DNA of 46,257 nucleotides from assembly GCA_030444405.1 (NCBI GenBank), contig JARFPM010000013.1, positions 1 to 46,257 of the forward strand, read 5' to 3'. Source of the DNA: Nitrospira sp. (lineage in GTDB: Bacteria > Nitrospirota > Nitrospiria > Nitrospirales > Nitrospiraceae). A program made the translations under genes and the position numbers. The notes below the pieces were generated by a model that worked only from the letters and a program-made list of their open reading frames with translations, did not search any database and had not been told where the DNA came from. Position 1 is the first letter of the stretch. Each line of letters opens with the position of its first letter. Below, in pieces: positions 9,485-35,745 of this stretch.

Positions 9485-11611
9485 CTACGATGCATACCGA
9501 AAATCGATGTTCCCTACCCCTTTTGTTTCCTTCAAGACCGCCAGTCGATGTGGGACATCGTGGAACGAAGGAATCGACCGAAATGCGTGAGCGGCCTTCT
9601 CCCACTGTTCCTCCGCTTCATAGAGTAAGCCCAACTCATAGCGAATGGCTTGGCCCTTAGGCCCGAGGCAGCGAGGATCAGCCAAGACCGTTTCCAGTCC
9701 CAGAATTGCCTGAGCGATGTGTTGCTCCTCCTTGAGGCAGACAGCTGTCATCAGTGCCGAATCGAGATAGAACGGGTTGCTGTTCATCGATACCTGAAAC
9801 TCCGCCTTGGCTTCCTCGTACAATCCCATGTTCTTGTATGCCACCCCCAACGCGTAGTGCGCCTCGTAGTCAGGTGGCATAGCTGGTTCGTTCAGGTTCG
9901 GCGGCGGTGCAGCGGGGGGTTTACTCGGAGCCGCTGGTCCAGTTGAGGCTCGGCCGGCAGCGAGCGCGGTTGGATGGGCACCGGGTGATGCGGGACTTTC
10001 GGCCTTGTGCGGGTCGCTTGTTTGTGATGCGTATGATTTCCCAGCCGACGGAGCCTTTACCGGCTCGACCTGAAGTTGCCGTGAGGTCTCCGGTGAGGCT
10101 GTCGCCGCCTTGGAGGCCGCCGAGGCCTTTGCTGTCGGGACGGGTGAGGTGGTCACCGAGATGGTCTGTGATCGTTGTCCGTTCGAAATCACATCCGACT
10201 CGACTCTGGTTTCCTGCGGCTCACTGTCCTTCGCGAAAGGATTGCCGTCGTCCGGCACCGCACCTACCAGCGAAAATTCTCGATCGTCCTTCGTCAGACC
10301 GTTCGGACGGGTTGCCTGAGCACTGCCCGAATCAACTTCCAGTGATCCAGTATCCGTCGGTATTATATTGACAGAGCTCGACGGCGCTTCCGCCTCCGAC
10401 ACATTCTGAGCTGACTCGCTCTGTTCTTCAGGAGGACCTCCCTTCATTCGTGCCGCCAGTCGATTCACGAACGCTTCATCGCTGGACAGCGATCGCACCT
10501 TATCGAAGAGCTCTTCATGCAGACTTTCCATGCCGGGCTCTGGATGCTCCAACAAGAGTTCGATGGCCTTCGCATACTGCAGTGCGGCTCCTCCGCTCTC
10601 GCCTTTCTCTTCGTGCAGTTCCCCGTTCAGTTCCAGCATGGGGACGGAGTTCGGGTCAGCGGACAAGAACTCCTGAATCAGCGATTCAGCAAGAGCCAGG
10701 TCATGCGCCCGCAGCGCTGCCCCCGCCAAAAAGCGATATTCTCCGAGCGCCACTTGCACATCCCCGCGCTGCAAATGCAACCGAGCCAGGAGTTGACAGA
10801 CTTGAGGGTTTCCCGGTTCCCGTGTGAGCATTTGGTTCAGGATCGCTTCCGCACCGGCATACTGCTTTTCGTCAATGCGACGAACGGCCTCCGCCAGCAG
10901 GTCGAGCGGTTCGGACGGTTTCTGCACCGGCGCGGTAGATCCTGGTTTGACCGCTTTGATCGATCCAGCTCCACCTTTCTTCATGCTCTCGACGAATTGG
11001 GCCGCCTCGTTGTTCGCGGGATCTATCCTGAGTACGGCGAGATACGCGTCTTTTGCCTCATCGTACCGACCTTGCGCCGATCGTTCACGGCCCAACTGGA
11101 GATATACGTTGGTCGCTTCGTCCTGCTGGTTTTCTTGGACACAGAGTTCGGCGACGCGCTGCTGCGCGTTGAGATTCGACGGATCGTGAAGGACGATCTT
11201 CTTGTAGATTTCGAGCGCGTCCTTCCCTCGACGCTCTTTCAGGTAGTACTTCCCGAGGGTGAGGTAGTCCTGGACCGCACTGCTGATGAGTCCGCGTTCA
11301 ACGTTCAGGTCTCCAAGGTGGCGATAGACTTCGTATCGAGTGGGATCGCATTTAAGGACTTTTTTAAAGGCCGCGATTGCCTTAAGGGTGGCGCCTTCGG
11401 CTCGGAAGGCCGAGGCCGCCTGCAAGAATGCAGTGGCGGCCTCCCCGGGGGCATTACGCTTTAATTGCAAATCACCGATCGTATTATGAATAGTGCCGTC
11501 GGTGGGGGTTTCTGAGGCTAACTTCTTCCATTCGGCTATGGCCGCTTCGTACTGTCCACGGGAAGCGAAGAGCTGAGCTTGATGTAGAACTCGACTTCGA
11601 TCCGAGGGCAC
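9485..11611 (-). CDS. Large tetratricopeptide-repeat (TPR) protein
   Basis: A 708-residue TPR scaffold of unknown partner. The start is a GTG at 11611, chosen for GGAGG seven bases upstream. Residues 1-390 form a chain of TPR-like helical pairs (AIAEWKKLASETPTDGTIHN, AIAAFKKVLKCDPTRYEVYR, ALEIYKKIVLHDPSNLNAQQ and others). About 390-570 is a low-complexity linker rich in S, A, P, T and K, probably disordered. About 575-700 returns to TPRs (AHYALGVAYKNMGLYEEAKA). There is no signal peptide, so it is probably cytoplasmic. It converges on the upstream dehydrogenase with a 27-bp gap. The family resembles regulatory or assembly TPR proteins; no specific function can be claimed. Confidence 0.8.
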   Translation of the reverse strand: MPSDRSRVLHQAQLFASRGQYEAAIAEWKKLASETPTDGTIHNTIGDLQLKRNAPGEAATAFLQAASAFRAEGATLKAIAAFKKVLKCDPTRYEVYRHLGDLNVERGLISSAVQDYLTLGKYYLKERRGKDALEIYKKIVLHDPSNLNAQQRVAELCVQENQQDEATNVYLQLGRERSAQGRYDEAKDAYLAVLRIDPANNEAAQFVESMKKGGAGSIKAVKPGSTAPVQKPSEPLDLLAEAVRRIDEKQYAGAEAILNQMLTREPGNPQVCQLLARLHLQRGDVQVALGEYRFLAGAALRAHDLALAESLIQEFLSADPNSVPMLELNGELHEEKGESGGAALQYAKAIELLLEHPEPGMESLHEELFDKVRSLSSDEAFVNRLAARMKGGPPEEQSESAQNVSEAEAPSSSVNIIPTDTGSLEVDSGSAQATRPNGLTKDDREFSLVGAVPDDGNPFAKDSEPQETRVESDVISNGQRSQTISVTTSPVPTAKASAASKAATASPETSRQLQVEPVKAPSAGKSYASQTSDPHKAESPASPGAHPTALAAGRASTGPAAPSKPPAAPPPNLNEPAMPPDYEAHYALGVAYKNMGLYEEAKAEFQVSMNSNPFYLDSALMTAVCLKEEQHIAQAILGLETVLADPRCLGPKGQAIRYELGLLYEAEEQWEKAAHAFRSIPSFHDVPHRLAVLKETKGVGNIDFRYAS

Positions 11612-12281: not shown

Positions 12282-13373
12282 GTGATCTTACGAACGCTAC
12301 TCGATCGCTATATTTTCACGGAACTTCTCTCTCCGTTTGGTCTCAGCCTCGGCGCGCTCTGCTTTGTCATGTTGACCCGGGAACTCTTGCGTCTTGTAGA
12401 ACTGTTGGTGTCTAAAGGGGTCGGTTTCTGGGCGATTCTCAAAGTGATCGCCATGCTGCTTCCCTCCGGTCTCGTACTCACGCTTCCGATCGCAGGCCTG
12501 ATCGCATCGGTGACGGCATTTGGCCGGTTATCCTTTGACAAGGAACTGGTTGCCATGCGCGCAACCGGGCTCAGCCTGTTTCGACTCTCGCAGCCGGTAC
12601 TCCTTTTCTCGGTGTGTGTCTTTACGCTGACATTGATATTGTCTCAATGGGGGCAGCCATGGAGCTCATTGAATCTCAAGAAAGTGGCTCTCAATCTGCT
12701 CAAAGATCAGCTTGTTCTGGCCCTGGAACGAGGCACCTTTAATGAGCCGATTCCACGCATGATGATTTATGTTCCAGAAGGTGAGTCGGGCCGGCCGGCC
12801 GAGGGTATTTTCATCTCGGATGAACGCCTGCCCGACGAACCTCGCGTCATTGTGGCGGAGCAATACCACCTCTTGATGGATGCGGCCCATTCGCAGGTTG
12901 CACTCCAGTTGGTGAACGGAGTCATTCATAGCCGACCTCGACGGGTCGACCAGTATCGCCAGATTACGTTTGCCAGTTATGATCTCAAGATCGATCTGAA
13001 CCTCAGCAGCTATTCGGCCACCGAAGAACGCCCGTCCTATGAACAGATCATGGCCCGGCTGGCCGAGTCCGGCGGCAAGGATGCCGGCTCTCTTCGTCGT
13101 TTGATGGAATACTATAAAGACTTGGCCTTTCCGACAGCTTCGCTCGTATTCTGTCTGCTCGGCGTGCCGGTCGGAATCGTCTCGAAGCGCTCCGGACGGA
13201 TCGGCGGGTTTGCCGTCGGCGTGGGCATCATCATCGCGTTTTATATCCTGAATGTCGGGTGTGATTTTTTGGTGACGGCATTGATCCTTCATCCCTTTGC
13301 GGGCGCCTGGTTGCCGAACATCGTGTTCATCGTCATCACCGTCGCTCTTTTCTTGAGGATGAGCCGGCAATAG
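12282..13373 (+). CDS. lptF: LPS export permease LptF
   Basis: Inner-membrane subunit of the LptB2FGC transporter that extracts lipopolysaccharide from the inner membrane and pushes it over the periplasmic bridge. 363 residues, normal for the family. It begins at a GTG (12282) with the characteristic ILRTLLDRYIFTELLSPFGL start, has three N-terminal membrane segments (about 14-120), a periplasmic beta-jellyroll region (about 130-270) and three C-terminal membrane segments with LGVPVGIVSKRSGR. lptG follows after 4 bp, so the two are cotranscribed. The Shine-Dalgarno is weak, and a strong-looking promoter lies just upstream. Confidence 0.9.
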   Translation: MILRTLLDRYIFTELLSPFGLSLGALCFVMLTRELLRLVELLVSKGVGFWAILKVIAMLLPSGLVLTLPIAGLIASVTAFGRLSFDKELVAMRATGLSLFRLSQPVLLFSVCVFTLTLILSQWGQPWSSLNLKKVALNLLKDQLVLALERGTFNEPIPRMMIYVPEGESGRPAEGIFISDERLPDEPRVIVAEQYHLLMDAAHSQVALQLVNGVIHSRPRRVDQYRQITFASYDLKIDLNLSSYSATEERPSYEQIMARLAESGGKDAGSLRRLMEYYKDLAFPTASLVFCLLGVPVGIVSKRSGRIGGFAVGVGIIIAFYILNVGCDFLVTALILHPFAGAWLPNIVFIVITVALFLRMSRQ

Positions 13374-13377
13374 CTAC

Positions 13378-14469
13378 ATGACGATCCTATTTCGGTACAT
13401 CCTTCGCGAATACTCGAAAATTTTCGGAACGTGCTTTTCAGGCTTGGTAACCATCTATCTCGTGATCGACTTTTTTGAGAAAGTCCGCCGGTTCCTGCGC
13501 TACGAATCGGGAATCGTCCCTATCCTCACGTACTTCGCCTTGAAGATTCCCTCTATTTCGTTCCAAGTTGCTCCGTTCGCGATCTTGGTGGCGACCTTGC
13601 TGACGCTCGGTCTATTCGCACGCAGTAACGAAATCACCGCCATGCGCAGCTGCGGGATCAGTTTATTGTGGATGACCTCGCCGTTTCTCCTGTTTGCCAC
13701 CGGCGTGTCCGCGGTACTCTTCCTTTTCAGCTCGACCGTCATTCCGCTCGCCTCGGAGAAAGCCGAAGAAGTTCGTGTGGTCCAGATCGAACAGCGACCA
13801 GCTCCGGTCACCACCAAAGCAACCCAGCCCTGGGCCCGTATCAGCGCCGATGGACTGATGGAAGTCGATGAGATCGATGTCACAGGCAGGACTCTGCGAG
13901 GTGTACGAATCTTTTATTTTCGTCCGCCGTTTAAACTTGATCGGATTACGGAGGCGGCTGAAGCCCGCTATACTCCTCAAGGCTGGATCATGCTGAACGG
14001 GTATCATCGCCGCTTCCAATCGGACGACACCGTCGAGCTGGATTTGTTCACGGAACAAGAGATCAGCATTCCGTTGATTCCCGATGATTTTTCCTCTTCA
14101 CTTGTGGGGAACTCGGAAACCATGACGTTTGGGGAAATCCGAAATTACCTCGCGCGCTTTCGGCACGAAGGTTTCTCGTTCGCCCGTCTGCTGACGGACT
14201 ACTACGGCCGTGTCGCATTCCCATTGGTGGCGGTGGTGATGGTGCTTGTCGGAATCGCGTTGAGTTTGCGGCGAAGCGGAGTCCGCGGTGGGAACATGGC
14301 CGTGGGTATCGGACAAGCGTTCATCGTCGGATTCTGCTACTGGACGACCCACTCCGTCGCCATCGCACTAGGACGAGGGGGAGCCTTGGCTCCTATGCTT
14401 GCCGGATGGATGGCGAACGCGCTGTTCCTCAGCTTCGGCCTTTATCTATTACTGAAGGTTCGACATTGA
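13378..14469 (+). CDS. lptG: LPS export permease LptG
   Basis: Partner permease of LptF in the LPS export ABC transporter. 363 residues starting LFRYILREYSKIFGTCFSGL, with membrane segments at about 12-120, a periplasmic jellyroll at about 130-265 and three C-terminal membrane segments carrying LVGIALSLRRSGVRGGNMAV. Its placement four bases after lptF, and the LptG-like length, distinguish it from a second LptF. The lipid A genes downstream fit the role. Confidence 0.9.
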   Translation: MTILFRYILREYSKIFGTCFSGLVTIYLVIDFFEKVRRFLRYESGIVPILTYFALKIPSISFQVAPFAILVATLLTLGLFARSNEITAMRSCGISLLWMTSPFLLFATGVSAVLFLFSSTVIPLASEKAEEVRVVQIEQRPAPVTTKATQPWARISADGLMEVDEIDVTGRTLRGVRIFYFRPPFKLDRITEAAEARYTPQGWIMLNGYHRRFQSDDTVELDLFTEQEISIPLIPDDFSSSLVGNSETMTFGEIRNYLARFRHEGFSFARLLTDYYGRVAFPLVAVVMVLVGIALSLRRSGVRGGNMAVGIGQAFIVGFCYWTTHSVAIALGRGGALAPMLAGWMANALFLSFGLYLLLKVRH

Positions 14470-14546: not shown

Positions 14547-15803
14547 ATGGCCTCGCGCGTGGTAATTACCGGTCTCGGGGTGGTATCTCCCGTCGGGATC
14601 GGCGTCAGCGAATTCTGGAAGTCGGCCCTTGCGGGTCGTTCGGGGGTTACTTCGATCCCTTCCCTTGGTTGGTTTCCGATGTCCGGCTATCGTTCGCGCG
14701 TTGCCGGGCAAGTCCACAATTTCTCACCGGAACAGTATTTGTCGACGACACAGGCGAGTCGCGTGGATCGTTACGCGCAATTCGCCCTGGTCTCCACGAA
14801 AGAAGCGCTCGCCGATGCCGGTCTGAGTATGGCCAAGGAGGCTCCCTATCGCGTCGGCGTCATTGTTGGAGCCGGTATGGGCGGAATGTTGATGGGAGAG
14901 CGTGAGATCACACAGCTCTTTAAGACTCAACGACCGCACCGCGTGCATCCCAATTTCATTCCTACGATCACGCTGAATTCTGCTTCGGGCATCGTCGCGA
15001 TGGCACACGGCGCCAAAGGACCGAACCTCACCATCTCGACGGCCTGCTCCTCCAGTGCCCATGCCCTCGGCCAAGCCCTGCAATGCATTCGCAGCGGTCA
15101 GGCCGATGTCATTATCGCCGTCGGAGCTGACGCGAGCATTACTCCGTTGGTCTTTGCCGGGTTTTGTTCCTTGCGTGCCCTCTCCAGCGAGTTTAACGAT
15201 GCTCCGGAACGAGCGTCCCGCCCCTTTGATCGACGCCGCGATGGATTCGTCATGGGCGAGGGCTCTGGCGCATTAATCGTGGAATCATGGGCGCACGCCA
15301 AGAAGCGGAAAGCGAGAGTCTATGCCGAACTTGTCGGGTATGCTGCCACCAGCGAAGCCTATCACATGATCATTCCTCAGGAAGATGGTGAGGAAATCTC
15401 CATGACCATGAAGATCGGTCTAGACTCCGCCGGCATCGGGCCGGATCAGGTCGACTACATCAATGCCCATGCGACCTCCACGACGATCGGCGACGCCGTC
15501 GAGACCAGAGCAATCAGGAGTCTTTTTAAGAATCGCGCGGACAAAATCGCCGTCAATGCCACGAAGTCACTCGTCGGCCATACATTAGGAGCGGCTGGAG
15601 CGATCGGCGCTGTGGCAACGACCCTCTCAATCCATACCGGGCAGATTCACCCCACAGCGAACTACGAGGAACCGGACCCAGGTTGCCGTTTAGATGGGAT
15701 CCGACGTGCCGTCCAAGAACGAAAGGTTCGGTACGCGATCTTGAACGCATTCGGATTCGGCAGCAACAATGCCACGGTTGTCTTTAAAAAATTTGTGGCG
15801 TAA
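14547..15803 (+). CDS. Beta-ketoacyl-ACP synthase II (FabF-like)
   Basis: Condensing enzyme that elongates acyl chains on acyl carrier protein. 418 residues, with the Cys-His-His triad: C167 in STACSSSAH, H308 in NAHATSTT and H345 in VGHTLGAAG. An excellent GGAGGG precedes the ATG. Cotranscription with an acyl carrier protein 79 bp downstream and lpxD beyond it points to supply of acyl chains for lipid A or another envelope lipid. Whether this is the housekeeping fabF cannot be settled here: no fabD, fabG or fabH is adjacent, so a dedicated, non-housekeeping ketosynthase is plausible. Confidence 0.9.
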   Translation: MASRVVITGLGVVSPVGIGVSEFWKSALAGRSGVTSIPSLGWFPMSGYRSRVAGQVHNFSPEQYLSTTQASRVDRYAQFALVSTKEALADAGLSMAKEAPYRVGVIVGAGMGGMLMGEREITQLFKTQRPHRVHPNFIPTITLNSASGIVAMAHGAKGPNLTISTACSSSAHALGQALQCIRSGQADVIIAVGADASITPLVFAGFCSLRALSSEFNDAPERASRPFDRRRDGFVMGEGSGALIVESWAHAKKRKARVYAELVGYAATSEAYHMIIPQEDGEEISMTMKIGLDSAGIGPDQVDYINAHATSTTIGDAVETRAIRSLFKNRADKIAVNATKSLVGHTLGAAGAIGAVATTLSIHTGQIHPTANYEEPDPGCRLDGIRRAVQERKVRYAILNAFGFGSNNATVVFKKFVA

Positions 15804-15882: not shown

Positions 15883-16338
15883 ATGACGGAACCGATCGAT
15901 CCCGCGATTACCTCTAAAATCATTCAGGCCTTGGCCAGCTATCTCAAGCGAGACCCTGCGTCGATTACCGAGTCTCATCATCTCCGTGATGATCTGGGCC
16001 TCGACTCGGTGGCCGTCATCGAATTGCTCTTTGAGATCGAGGAACGATTCAAACTGCAAATTCCGGATCAAGATCTCCCGGGGTTGAGTACCGTTGGTAC
16101 CGTAGCCGCCTATGTCCAGCGGCGGCTCGCTGAACCTAAGACTGAGTCCAAGCCTGAATCGGCCAAACCCGTGACCACGGCAAGTAAGTCGAAGTCAGCG
16201 AAGTCGACCATGACCAAGAAAGTCTCGGCCAAGTCCCCGCCCACTAAGAAGGCGACTTCAGTAAAGCCCGCTTCCCCGGGGAAGCCAAAGAAGGCATCCG
16301 CCGTTACGTCTGGGAAGAAGAAAGCGGCGGCCAGATGA
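15883..16338 (+). CDS. Acyl carrier protein with a long lysine/alanine-rich C-terminal tail
   Basis: The first 82 residues are an acyl carrier protein domain with the phosphopantetheine serine in GLDSVAVIEL (S42) and normal helices. Residues about 86-151 form a strongly basic, low-complexity tail with repeated KSAK, TKK, KPAS and KKA motifs, like histone H1 or bacterial H1-like proteins. Ordinary ACPs are about 78 residues and acidic throughout. AAGGAGC precedes the ATG. The stop overlaps the lpxD start (ATGA), so the two are translationally coupled, suggesting that this ACP delivers hydroxyacyl chains to LpxD. The tail might bind membranes, LPS phosphates or nucleic acid; this is inference. 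Confidence 0.88.
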   Translation: MTEPIDPAITSKIIQALASYLKRDPASITESHHLRDDLGLDSVAVIELLFEIEERFKLQIPDQDLPGLSTVGTVAAYVQRRLAEPKTESKPESAKPVTTASKSKSAKSTMTKKVSAKSPPTKKATSVKPASPGKPKKASAVTSGKKKAAAR

Positions 16339-17435
16339 ACAAGCCCCAACTGCCTTCTCCAATCACATTGGCTCAAATCCACGAGGTTGTTGGAGGGACG
16401 ATTCACGGCGACAACCAGACGCCGATCTCCGGCTTAACGAGCCTCGGCGAAGCCAACCCAAACGCCTTGTCGTTCATAACCAACGACAAAATGTCGAAAG
16501 CGGCGGCCACCATCCGCGTCGCAGGGCTACTGGTCCATCGGCATCTGCCTGATCTCGCTGTACCGCAAATCGTCGTGGACAATCCGATGCTGGCCTTCGC
16601 CCGTGTCGCACAGAAATTTTTTGTTTGTAAACAGGCTCCTCGGGGCATTGCCGAACATGTGACACAGGGCGCCGATGTGCGCATCGGAAGCGATCCTTCT
16701 ATTTGGCCTTTTGTTACCTTGGGCGACCGTGTGACGATCGGCAACCGCGTCACGCTCTATCCAGGGGTCTTCGTAGGATCGGATTCAACGATTGGGGACG
16801 ATTCCGTTCTGTATCCCAATGTCGTCGTTCGCGAAGGTTGTTCACTTGGTGCGCGAGTGATCGTGCATAGTGGAACCGTGATCGGAGCCGACGGGTTCGG
16901 GTATGTGCAGCATGAAGGCCGCCATCATAAGATCCCGCAACTCGGCGGCGTTGTCATCGAAGACGACGTTGAACTGGGAGCCAATGTGACGGTCGACCGC
17001 GCGACATTCGGACGGACCCTGGTGAAGCAGGGCACCAAAGTCGACAATCTCGTCCAGATTGCCCACAATGTTACAGTGGGAGAGCACTGCATCCTTGTTG
17101 CGCAGGTTGGCATCGCCGGCAGCACAACCATCGGCCACCATGTGATGATCGGCGGCCAGGCTGGGCTTGCTGACCATCTCACCATCGGAGATCAAGTCAT
17201 GATCGCGGCCAAAGCCGGCGTTAATCGAAGCCTTGGATCTAACCAAGTGGTAGCCGGCATCCCAGCGATGCCTCAGGAAAAGGTAATGAGAATTCAGGGA
17301 AGTATTTTCCAACTTCCTGCTATAAAAGACCTCGTCCGCGATTTAGAACAGCGCGTTGTGGCCCTTGAAGTGCAGTTGAAAGGATCGTCGGGTCGGACTC
17401 CGCGATCAAAAGCAGCTCGTTCTAAGAAGAGCTAA
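16335..17435 (+). CDS. lpxD: UDP-3-O-acylglucosamine N-acyltransferase LpxD
   Basis: Third step of lipid A synthesis: transfer of a hydroxyacyl chain from ACP to the 2-amino group of UDP-3-O-acylglucosamine. 366 residues: the LpxD N-terminal uridine-binding domain (about 1-100), then hexapeptide repeats forming a left-handed beta-helix (about 105-320), with the catalytic His in QIAHNVTVG (H244) and the GADGFGY segment. The last residues (PRSKAARSKKS) form a short basic tail echoing that of the preceding ACP. Start ATG overlaps the ACP stop. lpxA, lpxB and fabZ are not in the window. Confidence 0.93.
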   Translation: MNKPQLPSPITLAQIHEVVGGTIHGDNQTPISGLTSLGEANPNALSFITNDKMSKAAATIRVAGLLVHRHLPDLAVPQIVVDNPMLAFARVAQKFFVCKQAPRGIAEHVTQGADVRIGSDPSIWPFVTLGDRVTIGNRVTLYPGVFVGSDSTIGDDSVLYPNVVVREGCSLGARVIVHSGTVIGADGFGYVQHEGRHHKIPQLGGVVIEDDVELGANVTVDRATFGRTLVKQGTKVDNLVQIAHNVTVGEHCILVAQVGIAGSTTIGHHVMIGGQAGLADHLTIGDQVMIAAKAGVNRSLGSNQVVAGIPAMPQEKVMRIQGSIFQLPAIKDLVRDLEQRVVALEVQLKGSSGRTPRSKAARSKKS

Positions 17436-20220: not shown

Positions 20221-21159
20221 TCAATGAAACAATACACCTTGTATGGCCATGCGCTCCGTCCGTCCGCTTTCCGCCCATTCCTCAATCCCCTTCACATTCT
20301 GGCCCAGCCGTGATTGGATCGCGTCATAGTTCTTGGCATCCACCACCACACGGCGTTGCATCACGATCGTGAGGAAGCTATGCAACCCCATAAAAAACAC
20401 CATCGCATGGGAGGCATTGACCTGCTGAGCGGCGGACCACAGCTGCGCGACACGTTCAACAGCATTCTGCAAGTCGGAGGACGGTGGGTTGGGGACGACA
20501 CGACCATTCTTGAGGATCTGAAGGATAGCTGTCAGATTTGGAAGTTCTTGTCGAACGACTTGGAGAAAGCCTTGATCTCCTTCGGCTGACCGGTCGAGAA
20601 ACTCCTGGATGGAAGCTACGTTGTATTGTTCCACCCCGCGATCGATCAATCCCTCCGTCTGGGCTATCATTGTCTGAACCAAATTTCGATGGAATGCGTT
20701 GGAGGCCGTGCGGTGATCGTGGAGTCCACGGAGTAACACCAAAAACTCTTTCGTCGCGATCATCGTCGGAGGATCTTCGGCGGAAGCTGGGACATGTTCC
20801 GCATCAAAGGTCACACCCGTCGCTCTGGTCAGAGCTCCATGGACATGCCCCAGTTGCTTGCAGAGTGCGATGAAGTCATCGGCGGAGATTCGCGCGGAAG
20901 GGTCTTGAACGGCTTCAACAAATGGAAGAGCTGAGAAACTAGCCCGCTCGACATCACTCAAGTTAAGCGTAGCCGCAGACCCACCAAGGTTCGCAATCCC
21001 AACCTTGATTGTCTGAGCCAAGGCACGATGGCGGTCGAAAGGGGGAGATTGCTGTAGCTCATCGAGTGCGACGTGAATTTGCTGAAGCCATTCCTGTGCC
21101 TCTTGAACGAAAAGTTCAACTAGATCTTTCTGGAACGCATCTTCAGTTTCAACGGACAT
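20221..21159 (-). CDS. HPt-like protein lacking the phosphoacceptor histidine
   Basis: 312 residues. The N-terminus (VELFVQEAQEWLQQIHVALD) matches the start of CheA-type HPt domains, and the segment IANLGGSAATLNL aligns with the HPt signature AHTLKGSAxTLG; the phospho-histidine position is Ala56 and the following Lys is Gly59. Residues about 130-300 are a helical region without a recognised family. Phosphotransfer through this domain is not expected, so an adaptor role is more likely. It is cotranscribed between a receiver/coiled-coil protein and the ExeA-like ATPase, with gaps of 54 and 60 bp. Overall function is unknown. Confidence 0.65.
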   Translation of the reverse strand: MSVETEDAFQKDLVELFVQEAQEWLQQIHVALDELQQSPPFDRHRALAQTIKVGIANLGGSAATLNLSDVERASFSALPFVEAVQDPSARISADDFIALCKQLGHVHGALTRATGVTFDAEHVPASAEDPPTMIATKEFLVLLRGLHDHRTASNAFHRNLVQTMIAQTEGLIDRGVEQYNVASIQEFLDRSAEGDQGFLQVVRQELPNLTAILQILKNGRVVPNPPSSDLQNAVERVAQLWSAAQQVNASHAMVFFMGLHSFLTIVMQRRVVVDAKNYDAIQSRLGQNVKGIEEWAESGRTERMAIQGVLFH

Positions 21160-21213
21160 CGGCTTCGGCCCTTCAACAAGAACACAACCATCTAGGCGCT
21201 CCGGCTGGCTGGC

Positions 21214-22410
21214 TCAGGATTGCCCCCTCCCATTTCCAAGTTGGGAGGCCAACCCGGCAATCTCACCTAACTTGCGTGCCATTTCCTCAAGCCGTTTTGT
21301 GGCGTTCTCCGCGGCTTCTTCGGCTTCCACCACTCGTCGAGCGAGCATTCCGTTGCGGTCTCGTTCTGCGGTCAGGAGCCCTTCCATTTCCTGAACTCTC
21401 GTCGCCACTCTCTCCAATTCTTGAAGTTGTCCCATTGTCTCTGCCCCCTTCCGTCGTTCCGTCAAAAGTTCGACTTCGAGGTCCTGGATTTTCTGGTAAA
21501 GCTCGGCTCCCTGCTGTTCCGCACTCGCGAGTCTTGCTTCCACGTCTCTTGCCCTGATCGACACCTGCTCCAAATCCGACAGTTGCTCCACGAGTTCCTC
21601 TGCCGCCGCCCGTTCGGCAGTAAGAGCGGACTCGAGCTCCACAACCCGACCGGAGATCTTCTGCGAGTGCTCGACTTCTTGCTTGAGTGCATCGACCGCG
21701 CTCTGTTCGGCCTTGAGTGCAGTTTCAAGCTCCGAGATTCTCACTGCTTGATGCTCGGAGTGGGTGAGCTTCGCTTCAAGATCGCTAATCCGCTGCCGCT
21801 CGGCCACCAACTGCGTCTCGGCACCCTTCGCATGTGTGAGCTGTTCAGCCGCTTCTGCCAAGCGTTTGCCCAAGTCTTCTGATCGAGCGCGTTCTGCCCG
21901 TAATTGATCTTCAACTTCTTTGAGCTTCACTGAATCCTGCCCTGCGCGCGCCTGTTGTTGGTCCGCCATCGGAGAAGCCTTCTCGACAGTTGCGGGCGTT
22001 GGGCTGGTGGCGGGTCTGGGGGCAGCTGCCGGCGACGGTTCCTGCCGTTTTGCTATCAGCTCGAGGACTCGATCCTTGAGGGACGTTCCTTGAAAAGGCT
22101 TCTTCAATACCCCATTCGCGCGGCAGGACTCGGCTTGTTTAGTCACTTCATCGTTCACGATTCCGGAGATGAGCAGGACGGGCGTCGCTGCGAGTGTGGG
22201 GTTTCCACGCACAAATGCACACACTTCGTACCCGCTCTTATCCGGCATGATGACGTCGGACACAACAACATCGGGCCGTTCCTTTGCTAGATAAGCCAAT
22301 GCTTCTTCTCCGTTTGCCGCGAGAGTGACGCCGAGGCCTGCCTCGGTCAACAGTCGCTCAGCCACCTTGCGAACTGCGATGCTGTCGTCGGCTAGTAAGA
22401 TCTTCGGCAT
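21214..22410 (-). CDS. Receiver-domain protein with a long coiled-coil tail
   Basis: 398 residues from the ATG at 22410 (AAAGGTG upstream). Residues 1-125 are a CheY-like receiver with the acidic pair D8/D9, phosphoacceptor D52 (VVVSDVIMPDKSG), S82 and K104 (VLKKPF). A proline/alanine linker (about 126-160) leads to a continuous coiled coil to about residue 385, with heptad-like repeats of QLRAERARSEDL and ELETALKAEQS type. There is no DNA-binding or enzymatic output domain. Phosphorylation by the hybrid CheA upstream could control a rod-like scaffold, for example for polar or pilus localisation; that is inference. Confidence 0.85.
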   Translation of the reverse strand: MPKILLADDSIAVRKVAERLLTEAGLGVTLAANGEEALAYLAKERPDVVVSDVIMPDKSGYEVCAFVRGNPTLAATPVLLISGIVNDEVTKQAESCRANGVLKKPFQGTSLKDRVLELIAKRQEPSPAAAPRPATSPTPATVEKASPMADQQQARAGQDSVKLKEVEDQLRAERARSEDLGKRLAEAAEQLTHAKGAETQLVAERQRISDLEAKLTHSEHQAVRISELETALKAEQSAVDALKQEVEHSQKISGRVVELESALTAERAAAEELVEQLSDLEQVSIRARDVEARLASAEQQGAELYQKIQDLEVELLTERRKGAETMGQLQELERVATRVQEMEGLLTAERDRNGMLARRVVEAEEAAENATKRLEEMARKLGEIAGLASQLGNGRGQS

Positions 22411-22445
22411 GCCTACACCTTTCGTCCATCCAGGCACAGGGGGAA

Positions 22446-22892
22446 TCACACAGTCGATCCAAGTCGTGATACCGAGAGAATCGGGACTTCATCGAGGCCG
22501 TTGGTATAACTGCCTTCGGCCGGCAAATCCTTGCCTTGGTATGCCTGAAGCGCGGCAGGATCAAAGGTATGAAGAACCGGGATCTCCTCATCAATGCACA
22601 TCGCCATCTCTCCGAGGGGATGCTTCACCTTCAGACATAGAGGACTGCTCCCTTGCACAGTAAGATGAAGGGATGCGGCCAGATCGAATACCGGTAGCAC
22701 GGTCTGCCCCTGACGAACGACCGCCGTGACAAAAGGGGTTCGACCAGCGACCGGGATAGATTGGTGCCACTGAGAAATACCCGACACATCCAATGCTTTT
22801 ACTGCCAATCGTCTCCCCCCCACTGAAAACACCAACAGCTGCCATGATTGACGTGCCGTTTCCCGCTGATGCCTATGACCAGCCCTCAGCAT
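22446..22892 (-). CDS. CheW-like coupling protein
   Basis: Single CheW domain (148 residues): QLLVFSVGGRRLAVKALDVS at the start and RTPFVTAVVRQGQTVLPVFDLA in the middle match the two-lobed CheW fold. CheW proteins join MCP receptors to CheA. It overlaps the upstream CheW-like gene by 7 bp. It is one of three CheW proteins in the operon and is the most divergent, possibly serving a different receptor or a structural array position. Confidence 0.75.
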   Translation of the reverse strand: MLRAGHRHQRETARQSWQLLVFSVGGRRLAVKALDVSGISQWHQSIPVAGRTPFVTAVVRQGQTVLPVFDLAASLHLTVQGSSPLCLKVKHPLGEMAMCIDEEIPVLHTFDPAALQAYQGKDLPAEGSYTNGLDEVPILSVSRLGSTV

Positions 22893-23455
22893 ACCCGGCT
22901 ATCGTTCACTGAAATCTTCGGGGCTGCCACCAGTCGAGGAGTGTTTTCTTGCCCCCCACTGCCGTCTAAGCCCGATACCTGCTCATCAAGCACCCAGTTT
23001 GTATTGAGCACCAACGCAATGCTGTTTCCGAATAGGATCATGCCTCGGTACCAGTGTCGTTCCAGTCCACGGAACTGCATAGGAAGCGGCAGAACTTGAG
23101 ACTGTTGGAGTTCCAGGAGTCCGTGCACCGTGGTGACTCGAACGTTTCCGCGCGCTTCTCGTTCAGAAAGCAGCACGACACGTGTGTCCGTCCCGCCCCG
23201 ATCGTTGGATACACTCAATCGATTGGCCAGATCGATGGCCCTATACACCATGCCGTGAATCGTCGGGTTTTCAACGTATCCAGCCTCTTTGAGAGTCAAC
23301 ACTCCCTGTATAGACTCGGCATCTAACGCCAGGTACCGTCCGCCTAATGTCACGATGAGAAATCGTGATGGAGCAGCTGGCGACGAAGTTACCGTCATCG
23401 CTTCCCGGACGCCCAAGCCAAGACCTTCTTGCCCATTCTCTGTAACAAGTCGCAT
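22886..23455 (-). CDS. CheW-like coupling protein
   Basis: CheW-domain protein of about 189 residues. The domain begins at RFLIVTLGGRYLALDAESIQ and continues through IHGMVYRAIDLANRLSV and RVVLLSEREARG. An ATG at 23398 would also give a complete domain, so the start is uncertain. It follows the hybrid CheA with a gap of about 31 bp and is translationally coupled to the next CheW. Its role is to link receptors and kinase or to tune the array. Confidence 0.75.
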   Translation of the reverse strand: MRLVTENGQEGLGLGVREAMTVTSSPAAPSRFLIVTLGGRYLALDAESIQGVLTLKEAGYVENPTIHGMVYRAIDLANRLSVSNDRGGTDTRVVLLSEREARGNVRVTTVHGLLELQQSQVLPLPMQFRGLERHWYRGMILFGNSIALVLNTNWVLDEQVSGLDGSGGQENTPRLVAAPKISVNDSRVC

Positions 23456-23486
23456 TTCGTCAACCAATACGAATATTTCCGCAAGG

Positions 23487-26400
23487 TTACATGCGGAGCG
23501 CTGGGGCGCGCCCAATCCACCGCTCGATCTCCTGTAGTAACGTTCGTTCTTCCACTGGCTTAGCTATATAGGAATTGGCACCGATGTTGAGTGCTATCTG
23601 CCGGTGTTTATCCCCTGCCCTCGTCGTCATGACAACGACAGGCGTCTGTTTCGTTTCGGGTCGGCTTCGGAGCGCCTGAATGACTTCAAATCCATTCAGC
23701 TTCGGCATCTCGAGATCAGTGAGGATCATCCGATAACTGTTGGCTGATGCTTTTCGGAGTCCATCTTCCCCGTCAACCGCTGTATCAACCTGGTATCCAG
23801 CCGACTCCAGCATCCGTCCGACAAACTTGCGAATACTTAACGAATCGTCCACCAGCAGTAAGCGTGACCCCATCAGCTCATTCGCCACTGCCTCCTTTGG
23901 CACCGATTCCTCCGGCAAGAGCACGGCCTTAGAGAAAACAACACGTGCAGCTGCTTCTTTTGCCTCTCGTGAGATTAAGCGGCCTGGGTCAATAACAAGA
24001 ATGACCCGTCCTTCTGGGTCGATCGTTGCGCCTCCGAAAAACGAATGTTCTAATGGCTTTAACGGTCCGAGGGACTTGATCACGATTTCCTGCCGCCCCA
24101 ACAACTCATCGACCGCCAATCCCATTGGACCTCCAGCGGCCCGAACGATCACAACCGGCATCGTCCAGTCAATGCTGCCTGATTCGCGACGGAGCATGTG
24201 ATACAACGATTGAACTTCGATGTTTTGCTCACCGACCTGTAAGAACGTACGACGATCTTCTTCTCGCAAAGAGGAAGCTGTCGGTATCGTCACTTCCTGA
24301 ATATTCGGCAAAGGAATCGCATAGCGTTCGGTACCAGAACGCACCAATAACGCAGTCGCGATGAGCAGCGTGAGCGGAAGGTTTAAGGTAAACTTGGTAC
24401 CAACACCCTGTTCTGACTCCACGTCGATATGCCCATTCATGCCCTCGATGACTCGTTTGACAACGTCAAGCCCCACACCTCGGCCTGCCTGGTCCCCTAC
24501 CTTGTCGGCGGTTGAAAAACCGGGTAGGAAAATCAGCTGAAGGAGGTCCGCATCAGACATCGTTTGTAGTTGCTGTGATTGTGCTAGTCCGATCTTGCTG
24601 GCTTTTGTCCGTATTTTATCCAAATCCAACCCTGCCCCATCGTCTTCCACCTCGATGATGACCGAGTTTCCACGATGCGCTGCGTGCAGATAAACAGTCC
24701 CAATGGCTGGCTTGCCCTTCGCGACTCGGTGGGCTGCCGGCTCAATACCGTGGTAGACGGCATTCCGGACCAAATGGACCAATGGATCCACCAATCGTTC
24801 CACCACTCCTGTATCGACCTCCGTACGCTCACCTGATGTGACCAAGGACACTTCTTTATTTGAGGCTCGGGCCATTTCTCTGACCGCTCGATGAAACCTC
24901 GTGAATGGTGTCCCGATCGGGACCATACGAGCCCTTGCGATTTCGTCTCTCATGAATAACGTCAATTGTTGCAGCTGGCTCATATCGTCATGAGCTCTAC
25001 GGATCGACCCATCTAGTTGGGACATGGATTCACTAATATCAGCCGTGACTTCACCAAGGCGGCGAGCCAAGACATTGAAATCGTCGTACTTATCCAGCTC
25101 GAGGCTACCAAAATCGCCGAATATCGGAAGTCCTTGCGGAGCAGGTACAGTTGCATTGCTCGGTGCTTCCTGATGCGTAAAGGTGTGCTTATCGGCGAAC
25201 GATTGAACGGAATCGACCAAACGACTCTTGAATGCCAAGACCTGCTGCGACAATTGTTCCAATACTCGCAGTCGTTGTTCCAATCGGCCACGTCCAATGA
25301 CTAACTCTCCGACCAGATTCATCAATCGTTCTAACCGAGCATAGCTGACTCGAATAGCCTCACGTTCCTCGGCCGATCTCCCCTCGGAGGACTTCTCTTG
25401 CCCTTGGGACTCCTCCCTTTCACCCTGTGGTTTTGGCAGAGACCTGGAGACATGATCCGGTTGATGCGCCGCGGTGGTTTCAACGGCGCCACCCTGTTCT
25501 AGTCGTTTCAGCTCTGACCGCGCCGCATTGTAGCGCTGTCTCGTTGCCTCCACCTTGCTCAGATCTCTTCGTATCAGCACTCGAACAACATCGATTGATC
25601 GCAGTATCCAATCGGTGTGTCCGGGCAACACCTGAAGGCGACCGTCCCGTACCGCCCCCATAAAGTCTTCGACGTGATGAACAAGATCTCCGATAGACTG
25701 AAAACCGATGGTATAGGCAGAACCTTTCAAGGTGTGCGCAGTTCGAAAGAGCTGGTTGATCAGTTCCTTGTTTTGAGGGTCCTTATCCAGCCGGAGAAGA
25801 TTGGCCTCCAACGATTCCAGATACTCTTCCGCTTCAGGGACAAAGTACGACATGTCCTCCGGGTCTAACTCAGGGACCAAGTATTCATCGGACAAGCCTT
25901 CTGGGGGAATCTGGATCTCAACAAGCGTCTCCTTCTGAACAGCGATTGAGGTACCGACATCTACGCTGGGCGTAGCTGCCTGCGATGGATCCGGTGCTTC
26001 TTCGCACATCCGAGTAAATTGATGAACAAGAAGCGGCACATCACGTTGAAGTTCCTCTACGCTGGCCGGATCATGTTGGAGAATAAGGCGGATCATTGCA
26101 GCAGCTTTCGCTTGCATCTCAAGAAAAGCATGGTTCAGCTGAAGGCGCTTTTCCCGAACCGCAATCATGGAATCTTCCATAGGCCGGGCAATATCCCCAA
26201 TGACTTGGAAGCCTACGGTGTAAGCTGAGCCCTTCAGAGTATGCGTCGCGCGAAAGAGCCGATAGGTCGCGTCTTCATTGTCTTGCTTCTCTCTCAGACT
26301 GCGAATTAACTCATCGATGGTACAGAGATACTCCTCGGCTTCAGGAATAAAATAGGACAAGATTTCTGGATCGAGTACGGGACGGACATACGCCTCGCTG

Positions 26401-26813
26401 ACAACTGGTTTTGCAGTCGATGGGTCTCTCAAGCTCTCCAAAGACGCGAGACAACGGGTCACGAGGCCTTCATCCTCGCTGCCGCCCTGGCCAATTGATC
26501 GAATCAAGGATCCAAGGCCTTGTAGGACCTCTCGCATCACCCCTACAATGCGAGACCAGTCAGGAATGAGCGAGTTATCCGTGCCCTCGAAGATCGTTTC
26601 GAGTCGTTCCGCTAATCGTGCAACCCCGCCGTATCCATAGAGGGCAGCTGCGCCACGAATGCGGTGAGCGATGATGTACTGATCGTGGAGCGCTTCAGGT
26701 GTGGGGATCGGGTCGCCGTCGGAATGCAGAGCTTCTGATAATACTCTGATGCCGTCCGAGGCTTCTAAGACAAAAACACTGATCAAATCAGGCTGATTGG
26801 ATTGCAAACCCAT
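23487..26813 (-). CDS. Hybrid CheA histidine kinase with three HPt domains and a C-terminal receiver (ChpA/PilL-like)
   Basis: Central kinase of the chemosensory operon, 1108 residues. Three HPt domains with phosphoacceptor histidines at H50 (AHRIRGAAALYG), H191 (THTLKGSAYTVG) and H360 (AHTLKGSAYTIG); a dimerisation region (about 480-640); an ATPase domain with N-box HLVRNAVYHGIE, G1 EDDGAGLD and G2 GRGVGLDVVK; a CheW-like regulatory domain (about 800-930); and a receiver with phosphoacceptor D1033 (LTDLEMPKLNGF). This layout matches ChpA of the Pseudomonas twitching-motility system, which has more HPt domains. The first HPt is less conserved than the other two. It lies between the MCP (48-bp gap) and two CheW genes. 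Confidence 0.93.
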   Translation of the reverse strand: MGLQSNQPDLISVFVLEASDGIRVLSEALHSDGDPIPTPEALHDQYIIAHRIRGAAALYGYGGVARLAERLETIFEGTDNSLIPDWSRIVGVMREVLQGLGSLIRSIGQGGSEDEGLVTRCLASLESLRDPSTAKPVVSEAYVRPVLDPEILSYFIPEAEEYLCTIDELIRSLREKQDNEDATYRLFRATHTLKGSAYTVGFQVIGDIARPMEDSMIAVREKRLQLNHAFLEMQAKAAAMIRLILQHDPASVEELQRDVPLLVHQFTRMCEEAPDPSQAATPSVDVGTSIAVQKETLVEIQIPPEGLSDEYLVPELDPEDMSYFVPEAEEYLESLEANLLRLDKDPQNKELINQLFRTAHTLKGSAYTIGFQSIGDLVHHVEDFMGAVRDGRLQVLPGHTDWILRSIDVVRVLIRRDLSKVEATRQRYNAARSELKRLEQGGAVETTAAHQPDHVSRSLPKPQGEREESQGQEKSSEGRSAEEREAIRVSYARLERLMNLVGELVIGRGRLEQRLRVLEQLSQQVLAFKSRLVDSVQSFADKHTFTHQEAPSNATVPAPQGLPIFGDFGSLELDKYDDFNVLARRLGEVTADISESMSQLDGSIRRAHDDMSQLQQLTLFMRDEIARARMVPIGTPFTRFHRAVREMARASNKEVSLVTSGERTEVDTGVVERLVDPLVHLVRNAVYHGIEPAAHRVAKGKPAIGTVYLHAAHRGNSVIIEVEDDGAGLDLDKIRTKASKIGLAQSQQLQTMSDADLLQLIFLPGFSTADKVGDQAGRGVGLDVVKRVIEGMNGHIDVESEQGVGTKFTLNLPLTLLIATALLVRSGTERYAIPLPNIQEVTIPTASSLREEDRRTFLQVGEQNIEVQSLYHMLRRESGSIDWTMPVVIVRAAGGPMGLAVDELLGRQEIVIKSLGPLKPLEHSFFGGATIDPEGRVILVIDPGRLISREAKEAAARVVFSKAVLLPEESVPKEAVANELMGSRLLLVDDSLSIRKFVGRMLESAGYQVDTAVDGEDGLRKASANSYRMILTDLEMPKLNGFEVIQALRSRPETKQTPVVVMTTRAGDKHRQIALNIGANSYIAKPVEERTLLQEIERWIGRAPALRM

Positions 26814-26861
26814 CCGCTTGCCTTTAGGCCGGGAAAGACTTGCCCGGTAGAGCTTGAATCA

Positions 26862-28751
26862 TCAGGCCAGCTTGAATTGCGACACAGACGCCGTCAAACC
26901 TTCAGCCAGTTTCACCATGTCTTCGACCGTCGCACGTGCTGAATCGGTGGCTTTCTGAGTTGCCATTGCACCTCCCGTAAAGTCTTTGATCGAGCGTCCG
27001 ACGTGATCGGTTGAAACCGTTTGGTCAGCGGCCGCCGCTGCAATGCTTTGGGCAAGCTCAGCAGACCGTTGAGCAATCGTTGAAATCTCCTTAAATACGT
27101 CACCCGTACGCAACGCCGAAGCCGATCCCGCTTCGACTGCCTGCGTCTCATGTTCCATCGCAACCACGGCATGTTGCGTTTCGCCCTGGATGACTTTCAC
27201 CAGATCCGCAATCTCGCGTGTCGCTTGGGTCGAACTCTCCGCGAGCTTCCGCACCTGGTCGGCGACAACGGCGAAGCGAGCCCCGGCCTCGCCTGCGCCG
27301 GCAGCTTCGATAGCGGCGTTTAAAGCCAACAAGTTCGTCTGATTCGCAATGTCTCGAATGGTCGACACGATTTGCGAAATTTCCAGTGAGCGATCACCGA
27401 GCGCTTTGACCTGCTTGGACATCCGTTGAACGGCTGATCGGATACGCTGCATATCCTGAACGGTTTCCTGCACCGCCACTCGGCCGTCTTCAGTCGCTTT
27501 CAACACTTGCCGAGCTGATTCGGATGAAGCTTCGGCTGTATCCGACACTTGCCGCATGGAGGCGGCCAGCTGTTCGACCGCGCCGAGCGTCCTCATCGAC
27601 TCATCCGCTTGATGCTTAGCTGTTCCAGCCATCTGTCCAGCGTTATCGCGCAGTGCACCGGCAGATCTATTGACTCGTTCGGCCGATTCTCGGACCTGTT
27701 TCATTAATTGCGCGAACCGCTGGATCATGAGGTTGAAGCCATCGGCCAAGTTACCGAACATGTCGGCCGTCACTTCGCCTCGCTTGGTCAGGTCTCCCTT
27801 CCCAACATCGGATACGAGCACCAGAAATTGCACCAGGCGTTTCTGCATGGTATCCCGTTCTTCTTCGGTGGAGACCAGGCGCGTAATGCGGTCGAGCATG
27901 GAGTTGAAAGCCTTGGCCATGTGCCCGACCTCGTCGTCGCTGTCCAGCCGAGCTCGTGCCTGCAGATTCCCAGCAGCGGCCTGTTGGGCAACGTCGGCGA
28001 CATGCACGATATTGCGGGCGATGTTGCGGGCGAGAAAATAGCTGATCGCACCGGCCAACATCAGGGCCAGCACCGCGCCCATCAATACGATATTCGTCCG
28101 ATACGACGCTTCAGCTTGTCCGTTGTCGTTCTGCTCCTTGGCAACCTCACGGATGGTCGTCATAAGCTCGCGCACTCGCAACGTCGCCGAACCATATTTG
28201 CTCGCCGCTTCGACAGACAATGCGAATTGCCCACGATCCCGCATCGCCTGTTTCTGGTCATCTGACAACGAGGATCCGAAGCTGTCCGCGAACGCTCCTA
28301 CCGCACCCTCCGTGGCTGTAAAGTAATCGCGCAACGCTTTGCGAAGGTCTTCCAGGTCTTTACTCTCATTTCTTCCGGTCGAGGATTCATGTAATTGGGA
28401 TGCCTGGTAGGCATCGAGTGGCGCAAGAGTTTGTCGCTTTAATTCTGCGAGCGGAACCAATGCTTCTTCAAAGTCACTCTTCCGGGTCTGTCGTCCAAGA
28501 TTCAGCAGTGCGCTATGATAGAGGCCCAGGTTGGTACTACTGATCCCGACGTTTGAAAGGGCCAGAGTCGACCCGTTGTAAATCGACTGCAACTCGCCTT
28601 TCAGCTTATGGAGCCCGATCAGACCTATCAAACCAACGGTGATCATGATGGCGCTCACGGCGGAAAACCCAATAATCAGCTTGGGCAGAGTCTTGAGGTT
28701 TTGAAACCATGATTGCATTGGCCTTGCCACCGGCTTGCTATACCTCGCCAT
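26862..28751 (-). CDS. Methyl-accepting chemotaxis protein, PilJ-like
   Basis: Transmembrane receptor, 629 residues from the ATG at 28751, preceded by GGAGGAGGAA (an ATG at 28769 overlaps that ribosome binding site and is rejected). TM1 is at about 24-47, a helical periplasmic sensor at 48-219, TM2 at 220-241, HAMP at 242-295, and a second HAMP-like segment at about 305-355 ([20 protein letters not shown], as in PilJ). The signalling domain has the tip [17 protein letters not shown] followed by [16 protein letters not shown]. The usual EAARAGE and RGFAVVA are altered at two positions, and no CheR-tethering pentapeptide ends the protein. It lies between a CheW gene and the kinase. Confidence 0.92.
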
Positions 28752-28811
28752 GACGTTCCTCCTCCTCACCGCTCACGACCACGCCCTGTTCTATACAAGC
28801 CACTGTTTCTT

Positions 28812-29333
28812 TCACCGATTCGTTTGAGGACTCATATCAGTGCTCGATTCCTCAACAGACGCTAATAACTTCGAAAGTTCCAACATGGCGCTTACGCGAT
28901 TCTCGACTCGTACGAGTCCTGACAAGAAGGGGTGTTTGTCGGTTGCACTCGGCACCGAGGAGTTCAGCAGGTCGTCAGGAGAGATGGTCCGGATCTCCGG
29001 GACATCGTCGATGAGTAGACCAACCTGATGAGGACCATGCCGTACGACAATCGCATATCTCGAAACAGTTGAGGGAGACACTCCCAAAGACAGCCTCAAG
29101 TCCGCCAGCGGGACAATAGTTCCACGGAGATTGGCCACGCCCACCAGTGATGCCGGCATTCCAGGCACCGGTGTGATCGACTCAAGCTCGAAGACTTCAC
29201 GGACTTGGCGAAGATCGACGGCGAACAACTCCCCTCCCAGAGTGAACAGGCAAACCCTCCACAAACCTGTGGATTGTGTTTGCTCGGGTTCTGAGTCGGA
29301 GCTGAGCTGAGGTAACTCACATGGTAGTTCCAT
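28812..29333 (-). CDS. CheW-family coupling protein (PilI-like)
   Basis: 173 residues with a canonical CheW domain: FTLGGELFAVDLRQVREVFE, PVPGMPASLVGVANLRGTIV and PLADLRLSLG. This is the most conserved of the three CheW proteins in the operon. It is second in order, directly before the MCP, as PilI precedes PilJ in Pil-Chp systems. It should couple the MCP to the hybrid CheA. Confidence 0.9.
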   Translation of the reverse strand: MELPCELPQLSSDSEPEQTQSTGLWRVCLFTLGGELFAVDLRQVREVFELESITPVPGMPASLVGVANLRGTIVPLADLRLSLGVSPSTVSRYAIVVRHGPHQVGLLIDDVPEIRTISPDDLLNSSVPSATDKHPFLSGLVRVENRVSAMLELSKLLASVEESSTDMSPQTNR

Positions 29334-29359
29334 CGTCTTTCAACCCATGCATCATTGAG

Positions 29360-29725
29360 TCACTCAGCTAACGCAAGCTTGATTGCCTGTAACAGCTCTT
29401 CAGATTTGAACGGCTTGACCACATGTCCGTTCGCTCCCTGTTGTTGTCCCCAAAACTTGTCGCTTTCCAGGCCTTTTGATGTGCAGAGTACGATCGGAAT
29501 ACTCTTAAATCGGGCATCGTTCTTCAAATCCCGACAAGCCTGAAACCCATTGCGGCCAGGCATCACCACATCCATGACAATCAGATCGGGCTGCTCCGTA
29601 ACGATCTTGTCTTCGAGATTGTCGGTGCTTGAGAATGACACGACCGTATGGTGAGCGGCTTTCAGGTACAACTCAATGAGTTGTATCTCGGCCTGTGAAT
29701 CATCGATCACCACAATCTTGCTCAT
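29360..29725 (-). CDS. Stand-alone receiver protein (PilG/PilH-like)
   Basis: Single CheY-like receiver of 121 residues: D8/D9 acidic pair, phosphoacceptor D52 (VMDVVMPGRNG), T82 and K104 (HVVKPF). Length and position at the head of the operon match PilG or PilH, which control pilus extension and retraction motors in Pseudomonas. A good AGGGAGAGGAAAG lies before the ATG. The gene begins 28 bp after the end of the decayed haem-protein gene, so it probably depended on that gene's promoter. Confidence 0.9.
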   Translation of the reverse strand: MSKIVVIDDSQAEIQLIELYLKAAHHTVVSFSSTDNLEDKIVTEQPDLIVMDVVMPGRNGFQACRDLKNDARFKSIPIVLCTSKGLESDKFWGQQQGANGHVVKPFKSEELLQAIKLALAE

Positions 29726-29752
29726 GAGACTCTTTCCTCTCCCTAGGACTGA

Positions 29753-30497
29753 TCATTGAAACGCCCAACGCAACGGCATGACTACACTGATGGCGCCAGC
29801 CAGCTCTCCCTCGTTCACACTTCTTTCTTCGTACCGGTCATATCCTGCTCTCCCTTGGGACCACCATGGCACATCAGTCAGCTGGCTCCCGCATATTCAG
29901 GATCCATGACGCGCATGACTGGCTTGCCGCTAAGCGTCGTCACCTTTGCATATTGTTGCCCCTTCGGATGGCGTGGATCGGCAAACATACGAAGGACTTC
30001 GGCTTCAAAGTCATCTGGCTAATTACCAGGGAAGCGATAGTCTGTACCCGTCAGCTTGACCCTAATACCGGTCTTCGCAAAAACTTTTGCCCGACCTTCC
30101 GAGCGAACGCCGACGGAACAAACCCTTTGAAGGCGATGCCCTGCTTGTTGATAATAGATTGTGCCTCGAGCACGACCTCGAGTTCGGACTCCAGCATGGC
30201 CAAGAGAATCTCGCTCTGCGGAATGCCGCTCGAATGGGACAAGTCGACTCGAGTCTTCGCTTTGAACTTGTCAATGACCTGGCTTACTACGAACTTATCG
30301 GTGAAGCCTTTGTCAGCTTTAGATGCGTCATTGACGAGCGGCGGGTGTTCGGACACCACCGCTTGTCCGGCCCGCACCAACTCGATGAGCAGTTCCGCGA
30401 TCTCTCCCTCATCTCCTGCCTCTGCATGGGCAAAGCCCTCCCCCATCACCACACAGAGCCCGACTCCCGCAATCAATGCCGACACCCGCGCCCTCAT
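29753..30497 (-). pseudogene. Decayed Tll0287-like (DUF3365) c-type haem protein gene
   Basis: Reading the minus strand gives a signal peptide (SALIAGVGLCVVMGEGFAHA), then DUF3365-like sequence (VNDASKADKGFTDKFVV, LESELEVVLEAQSIINKQGI). The frame is lost at the A-run 30079-30083 (a 1-nt change). In the shifted frame come KTGIRVKLTGTDYRFPGN, a TAG at 30019-30021, then DDFEAEVLRMFADPRHPKGQ and MRVMDPEYAGAS. A TGA at 29878-29880 replaces the first Cys of the haem motif (xLMCHGG). Another frameshift near 29811-29825 precedes GELAGAISVVMPLRWAFQ and the stop. Two nonsense codons and two frameshifts make this a clear pseudogene. The ancestral protein was probably a periplasmic haem sensor or redox protein. 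Confidence 0.85.
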
Positions 30498-35740: not shown

Positions 35741-35745
35741 ACGTG

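Follow-up and report, generated by a model that had tools for sequence, protein, structure and literature searches.

A lysine-tailed acyl carrier protein encoded beside lpxD in Nitrospira is a probable dedicated carrier for lipid A assembly

Acyl carrier proteins (ACPs) are, in the textbook picture, small, acidic and freely diffusing shuttles. To our knowledge, polybasic tails have been described neither on the ACP of E. coli nor on its lipid A partner LpxD. In E. coli, ACP is the acyl donor of LpxD and docks on the C-terminal domain of that enzyme mainly by charge (PMC6286764). A carrier specific to lipid A is known from rhizobia and Agrobacterium, where the AcpXL gene is clustered with one or more ketosynthase genes and with a lipid A acyltransferase gene (PMC11901934). 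Another carrier, mycobacterial AcpM, has been solved in complex with the membrane proteins EmbA/EmbB and MmpL5, according to the titles of the PDB entries. The literature that we searched, which was not exhaustive, contained neither a description of a lysine-tailed ACP nor a biochemical study of Nitrospira lipid A.

The DNA analysed here (the window) is a stretch of 46,257 nucleotides from Nitrospira sp. and forms contig C58 in an assembly of 3.46 Mb. A contig scan, which reaches close relatives only, returned sequences nearly all from Nitrospira or Nitrospiraceae, and the closest public relatives that it found for the window are Nitrospira metagenome-assembled genomes; convergent tailed ACPs elsewhere are possible. 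Away from the ACP gene, positions 20221-30515 lie mostly on the minus strand and look, by reading, like a large block for chemotaxis-type signalling, with genes for a hybrid histidine kinase and for methyl-accepting, CheW-like and response regulator proteins. Positions 30669-45322 look like a cobalamin biosynthesis block, after which come a TonB-dependent receptor and an ABC uptake system. Contig C53 of G000 holds a single open frame of 3095 codons (28750-35337) and, because this frame has three PP-binding domains, the genome also encodes a large multi-carrier synthase of the polyketide or non-ribosomal peptide type.

The plus-strand ORF at 15883-16338 gives an uninterrupted translation of 151 amino acids, made up of two parts in one frame: an 85-residue ACP domain (15883-16137) and a 66-residue Lys/Ala/Ser/Pro/Thr tail (residues 86-151, 16138-16335). 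The Pfam PP-binding model PF00550 matches residues 12-78 (E 2.5e-14; 53.7 bits against a gathering score of 20.8), and the GXDS serine is present as GLDS. This serine, Ser42 (codon at 16006-16008), is invariant in the family alignment and is the predicted 4'-phosphopantetheine attachment site, so that the protein is likely to be phosphopantetheinylated there. AlphaFold predicts the ACP helical fold with confidence (block-mean pLDDT about 86-90 across residues 11-80), and the Foldseek matches for the domain are ACP structures, including the LpxD-bound E. coli ACP of 4ihf/4ihh. Two closer assignments fail on score, since the protein reaches 52 bits against a cut-off of 70.45 for the housekeeping AcpP equivalog (TIGR00517) and 49.4 against 146 for AcpM (NF040636). 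The earlier note had described a normal acidic ACP with its phosphopantetheine serine, fused to a Lys/Ala/Ser/Pro tail of a kind that ACPs do not normally carry. The serine and the in-frame fusion are as it said, but the acidity of the domain is only mild: its net charge is -6, as compared with -16 in the housekeeping ACP, which is encoded next to a fabF on contig C169. That tails of this kind are not usual holds among the ACPs that we compared, as the housekeeping ACP is tail-less and the ACP models of NCBIfam stop near residue 77-100. With a tail of net charge +17, the complete protein comes to about +11; the pI is 4.66 for the domain, 10.89 for the tail and 9.88 for the whole.

The tail is a low-complexity segment with 18 Lys, 1 Arg and only 2 Asp/Glu, the bulk of the remainder being Ala (11), Ser (12), Pro (7) and Thr (8), and it is predicted to be disordered (pLDDT about 46-53 over residues 91-151). 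In 37 close pairs of relatives, differences per site at codon positions 1, 2 and 3 were 0.069, 0.050 and 0.141 in the tail and 0.014, 0.009 and 0.083 in the domain. The tail thus evolves faster than the ACP domain, and since its differences concentrate at third codon positions, it is translated in the frame given here. The uninterrupted ORF and this third-position bias rule out chance or a frame error as the source of the tail, including the shift out of phase past residue 85 that the earlier note had allowed for. Separately, in the relatives at loci L018/L059 and L022/L073 a break in the frame of the tail cuts the ORFs short, at 137 and 127 amino acids, possibly as a result of assembly or slippage errors in the repetitive lysine codons. 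Near its end, the tail contains a purine-rich stretch (GGGAAGAAGAAAG, 16312-16324, plus strand) that codes for the terminal GKKK, lies about 10 bases ahead of the lpxD ATG and may double as the lpxD ribosome binding site.

The ACP gene sits in a run of plus-strand genes for envelope and acyl-chain functions. Upstream are two genes for LPS export permeases of the LptF_LptG family, lptF-like (12282-13373; PF03739, E 5.5e-75) and lptG-like (13378-14469; PF03739, E 8.7e-76), and a FabF-type ketosynthase gene (14547-15803; TIGR03150, E 1.2e-153) with the Cys-His-His motifs ACSSS, HATST and KSLVGHT. Downstream is lpxD, for UDP-3-O-acylglucosamine N-acyltransferase (16335-17435; TIGR01853, E 3e-106, above cut-off; PF04613), which overlaps the ACP ORF by four bases, its start codon running into the ACP stop codon (ATGA, 16335-16338). 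The order lptF-lptG-ketosynthase-ACP-lpxD is preserved even in families in which the ACP domains share only 45-50% identity. We searched 296 genomes of the phylum with a profile of the domain and counted the hits by hand; a clear gap in E value divides members of this ACP family (at most 3.2e-28) from generic ACPs (at least 5e-20). The protein was present in 76 of the 79 sampled genomes of the window's family and in 8/19 of a sister family; outside the order, the 296 genomes contained none. It was also present in every relative of the same genus that was searched, and a third family of the order has it in one genome, G053.

The genomes that have lost parts of this module are informative. A ketosynthase orthologue (64-75% identity class), which co-occurs with the ACP, was absent from 14 of the 15 tested genomes of the order that have no intact ACP of this family. 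In two genera in which the ketosynthase-ACP pair is missing (g3 and g8), lptG lies directly ahead of lpxD. We saw no ACP gene without lpxD in the genomes checked, and the two near-complete genomes without lpxD are missing the ACP too. From this pattern of loss, we conclude that ketosynthase, ACP and lpxD form one module; the link to lpxD that the earlier note had drawn from translational coupling is strongly supported by gene order and co-occurrence. The ketosynthase-ACP pair is an added element whose loss LpxD outlasts, presumably with the housekeeping ACP as its donor. Individual genomes show further states: G213 (L229) has no ketosynthase and a decayed ACP, and in G209 the ketosynthase, ACP and lpxD are all lost. 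G278 (L228) has an intact ACP but only remnants of the ketosynthase, and G162 (L227) has an intact ketosynthase but has lost the ACP and lpxD; these two genomes count against a strict linkage of ketosynthase and ACP.

LpxD itself ends in a short basic tail. The last 20 residues (GSSGRTPRSKAARSKKS, 17373-17432, plus strand), directly after the C-terminal helix, have a net charge of +7, and the corresponding segment was basic in 57/57 distinct relatives compared (+4 to +10). Many relatives without the ACP still have a basic LpxD tail, though a weaker one (mostly +2 to +6), so strict co-occurrence of the two tails is not upheld. The LpxD tail of one relative without the tailed ACP (G035, L187) is K/A/P-rich and H1-like in composition. 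The residues through which ACP and LpxD touch in E. coli are largely retained: ACP Glu47, equivalent by motif position to E. coli Glu41, is invariant, and LpxD Arg298, which aligns with E. coli Arg293, is Arg in 77/83 of the ACP-linked LpxDs. Because these contacts are kept, the ACP is likely to be a dedicated donor to LpxD. We also considered a special chain-length pocket of LpxD tied to the module, and set this aside as evidence: the residue aligned with E. coli M290 is Gly, which Chlamydia also has there (G298), but relatives without the ACP have this Gly equally.

Basic tails of this kind are rare among the proteins of these bacteria. In a 446 kb sample, made up of the window and of 400 kb taken from across the complete genome G024, only 3 of 480 ORFs finish with a stretch of comparable composition that is 20 residues or longer, which rules out a genome-wide habit of adding K-rich tails. 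The three are the ACP (65 residues), the adjoining LpxD (20 residues) and a CBS-domain-like protein. The last, so named by reading (L113 of G024, 10624-11101), ends lysine-rich: SKPRAKTSKKAA. A search of the window's own genome with the tail alone gave no second strong match, low complexity weakening such a search. LpxA, LpxB, LpxI and FabZ have neutral to acidic ends and no basic tail, and their genes are clustered elsewhere, with fabZ beside lpxA.

Among 80 distinct intact members of the ACP family, from close and distant relatives, all 80 had a basic C-terminal tail, of 16-99 amino acids. The tail is therefore not missing in close relatives, which the earlier note had named as a result that would speak against it, and its occurrence in each intact member over at least three families rules out a recent one-off fusion. 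In 60 distinct members the tail averaged 59 residues, with a net charge of +16.5 and 1.6% Asp/Glu. The last 12 residues carried a net charge of at least +2 in all 80 members (mean +5), acidic residues were nearly absent, and the 4066 tail residues included a single aromatic. The histone-H1-like character that the earlier note had seen is right as to composition and applies to most Nitrospira, where the tails are long; many members have instead only a short terminal K/R cluster, the other genera mostly having 20-30 residues that end in KKKK, KSKKA or similar. Tails of 16-25 residues (+5 to +10) occur in many genera, which shows that the long H1-like form is dispensable. Sequence change within the tail is selective in kind. 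In 20 independent, non-overlapping close pairs, tail lysine codons showed 36 synonymous transitions against 4 that alter the residue, each of these between Lys and Arg; a Lys/Glu change, likewise one transition away, did not occur. Codons for A, P, S and T in the tail showed 45 non-synonymous and 63 synonymous transitions (Fisher p 1.7e-4 against lysine). These counts indicate that the lysines are retained by selection, with the residues between them close to free, and hence that the positive charge of the tail is maintained by selection in Nitrospira and related bacteria.

What the charge is kept for can be read in several ways. If the tail were a largely neutral solubility or spacer segment, grown by slippage and without a specific role, one would expect the fast change in sequence and length and the free interchange of A, S, T and P positions that are seen; one would not expect strong purifying selection on lysine codons, the complete lack of K/E exchanges or a basic tail in every intact member across families, and we regard this reading, which we disfavour, as very unlikely. 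We give still less credence to the idea that selection on the terminal lysine codons acts chiefly at the DNA level, where they would provide a purine-rich ribosome binding site and the stop-start overlap for coupled translation of lpxD. An AAG/AAA-rich stretch does lie 10-20 bases ahead of the lpxD start and most Nitrospira have the ATGA overlap, but this would account for the last few residues only, whereas lysines are conserved tail-wide with AAA and AAG freely interchanged (the 36 synonymous changes above), and many relatives have a spacing of +2 to +15 with no overlap.

Alternatively, the tail could act on the choice of partners, by folding onto and screening the acidic recognition helix or by binding acidic faces of partner proteins, so that general fatty acid enzymes would use the ACP poorly but its own ketosynthase and LpxD would use it well. 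The electrostatic nature of ACP-LpxD docking (PMC6286764), the contrast in whole-protein charge with the housekeeping ACP (about +11 against -16) and the link to one ketosynthase and one acyltransferase are all consistent with this. A tail that ranges from 16 to 99 residues with no conserved register would nevertheless be unusual for a specific intramolecular contact, and the basic tail of LpxD itself would be expected to repel it, so we think this explanation rather unlikely. A tail of this composition might also bind another polyanion, such as DNA, RNA or ribosomes, or polyphosphate, and place the ACP at the nucleoid or near translating mRNA. Its K/A/P/S content resembles that of histone H1, and similar C-terminal tails drive the DNA binding of HupB and have been reported on actinobacterial Ku and topoisomerase I (PMC5676037). 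Against this, the conserved linked genes serve envelope assembly or acyl-chain synthesis, and outside Nitrospira the tails are mostly of 20-30 residues with a K/R cluster at the end rather than repeated PAKK-type motifs; we consider polyanion binding improbable.

The reading that we favour, tentatively and as somewhat less than probable when taken whole, is that of a dedicated lipid A carrier with its own ketosynthase, tethered by its tail at an anionic surface. Its parts differ in strength. That Nitrospira's order has a second, dedicated acyl carrier for lipid A assembly is probable. Tethering to the membrane, to LPS precursors or to nucleic acid, as the earlier note proposed, is possible, and we hold it plausible, though far from secure, that the tail keeps the carrier at the membrane by electrostatics. 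Such anchoring fits the tail because the segment is defined by charge only, tolerant of length and free of register. The ACP would be produced alongside its FabF-type ketosynthase and would pass a 3-hydroxyacyl chain to LpxD. Through its disordered, polylysine-type tail the ACP would be tethered electrostatically to an anionic surface; the lipid A pathway suggests the inner membrane, on its cytoplasmic face, as the most likely one. LpxD, basic-tailed as well, would be found at the same surface, an arrangement that would enrich the donor locally and segregate it from the bulk, strongly acidic housekeeping ACP. We favour the membrane because LpxD is also basic-ended and the partner genes serve envelope assembly; and because ACP and LpxD share this feature, the other lipid A enzymes checked do not, and the two tails would repel one another, we infer a shared target rather than contact between tails. 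It is a more doubtful proposition that the polycationic tail channels acyl chains to a likewise tethered LpxD, and thereby separates lipid A from general fatty acid synthesis by place and not by recognition alone. The tail has almost none of the hydrophobic or aromatic residues that often reinforce membrane anchors, which counts against such an anchor, and the basic LpxD tail of many relatives without the ACP counts against a coupling of the two tails. That a second ACP has a selected polycationic tail and is linked to one ketosynthase and to LpxD suggests that the cell may be able to address carriers to a particular place, and would offer a case of channelling in the lipid A synthesis of important nitrifiers.

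Set beside the known systems, the lpxD-linked ACP is like the AcpP-type ACPs (PF00550, TIGR00517) in domain, fold and phosphopantetheine serine, and differs from them in that it is separate from the housekeeping gene, falls below the TIGR00517 cut-off and has an added polybasic tail. Its top PDB sequence matches are to AcpM (1klp, 7bvc), which is also longer than a standard ACP (the 1klp chain has 115 residues), but AcpM serves mycolate synthesis and has no linkage to lpxD. HupB and other actinobacterial DNA-binding proteins likewise carry a K/A/P-rich basic C-terminal tail (PAKK/KAAK) on a conserved domain (PMC5676037), a likeness that we drew by composition alone; here the domain is an ACP rather than a DNA-binding one, and the tail is often much shorter. 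AcpXL offers a similar layout, in which a dedicated ACP is clustered with ketosynthase and lipid A acyltransferase genes, a likeness of arrangement only. AcpXL serves in the supply of very long chains to LpxXL, together with FabZ, two FabFs and a dehydrogenase, whereas the cluster described here has one ketosynthase, the primary acyltransferase LpxD and lptFG, with no fabZ, dehydrogenase or lpxXL gene between lptF and lpxD. Finally, the E. coli ACP-LpxD complex (PDB 4ihf, 4ihg, 4ihh) shows the same pairing of donor and acyltransferase, with electrostatic docking at the LpxD C-terminal domain, but there it is the general ACP that fills the role for which Nitrospira probably keeps a carrier of its own.
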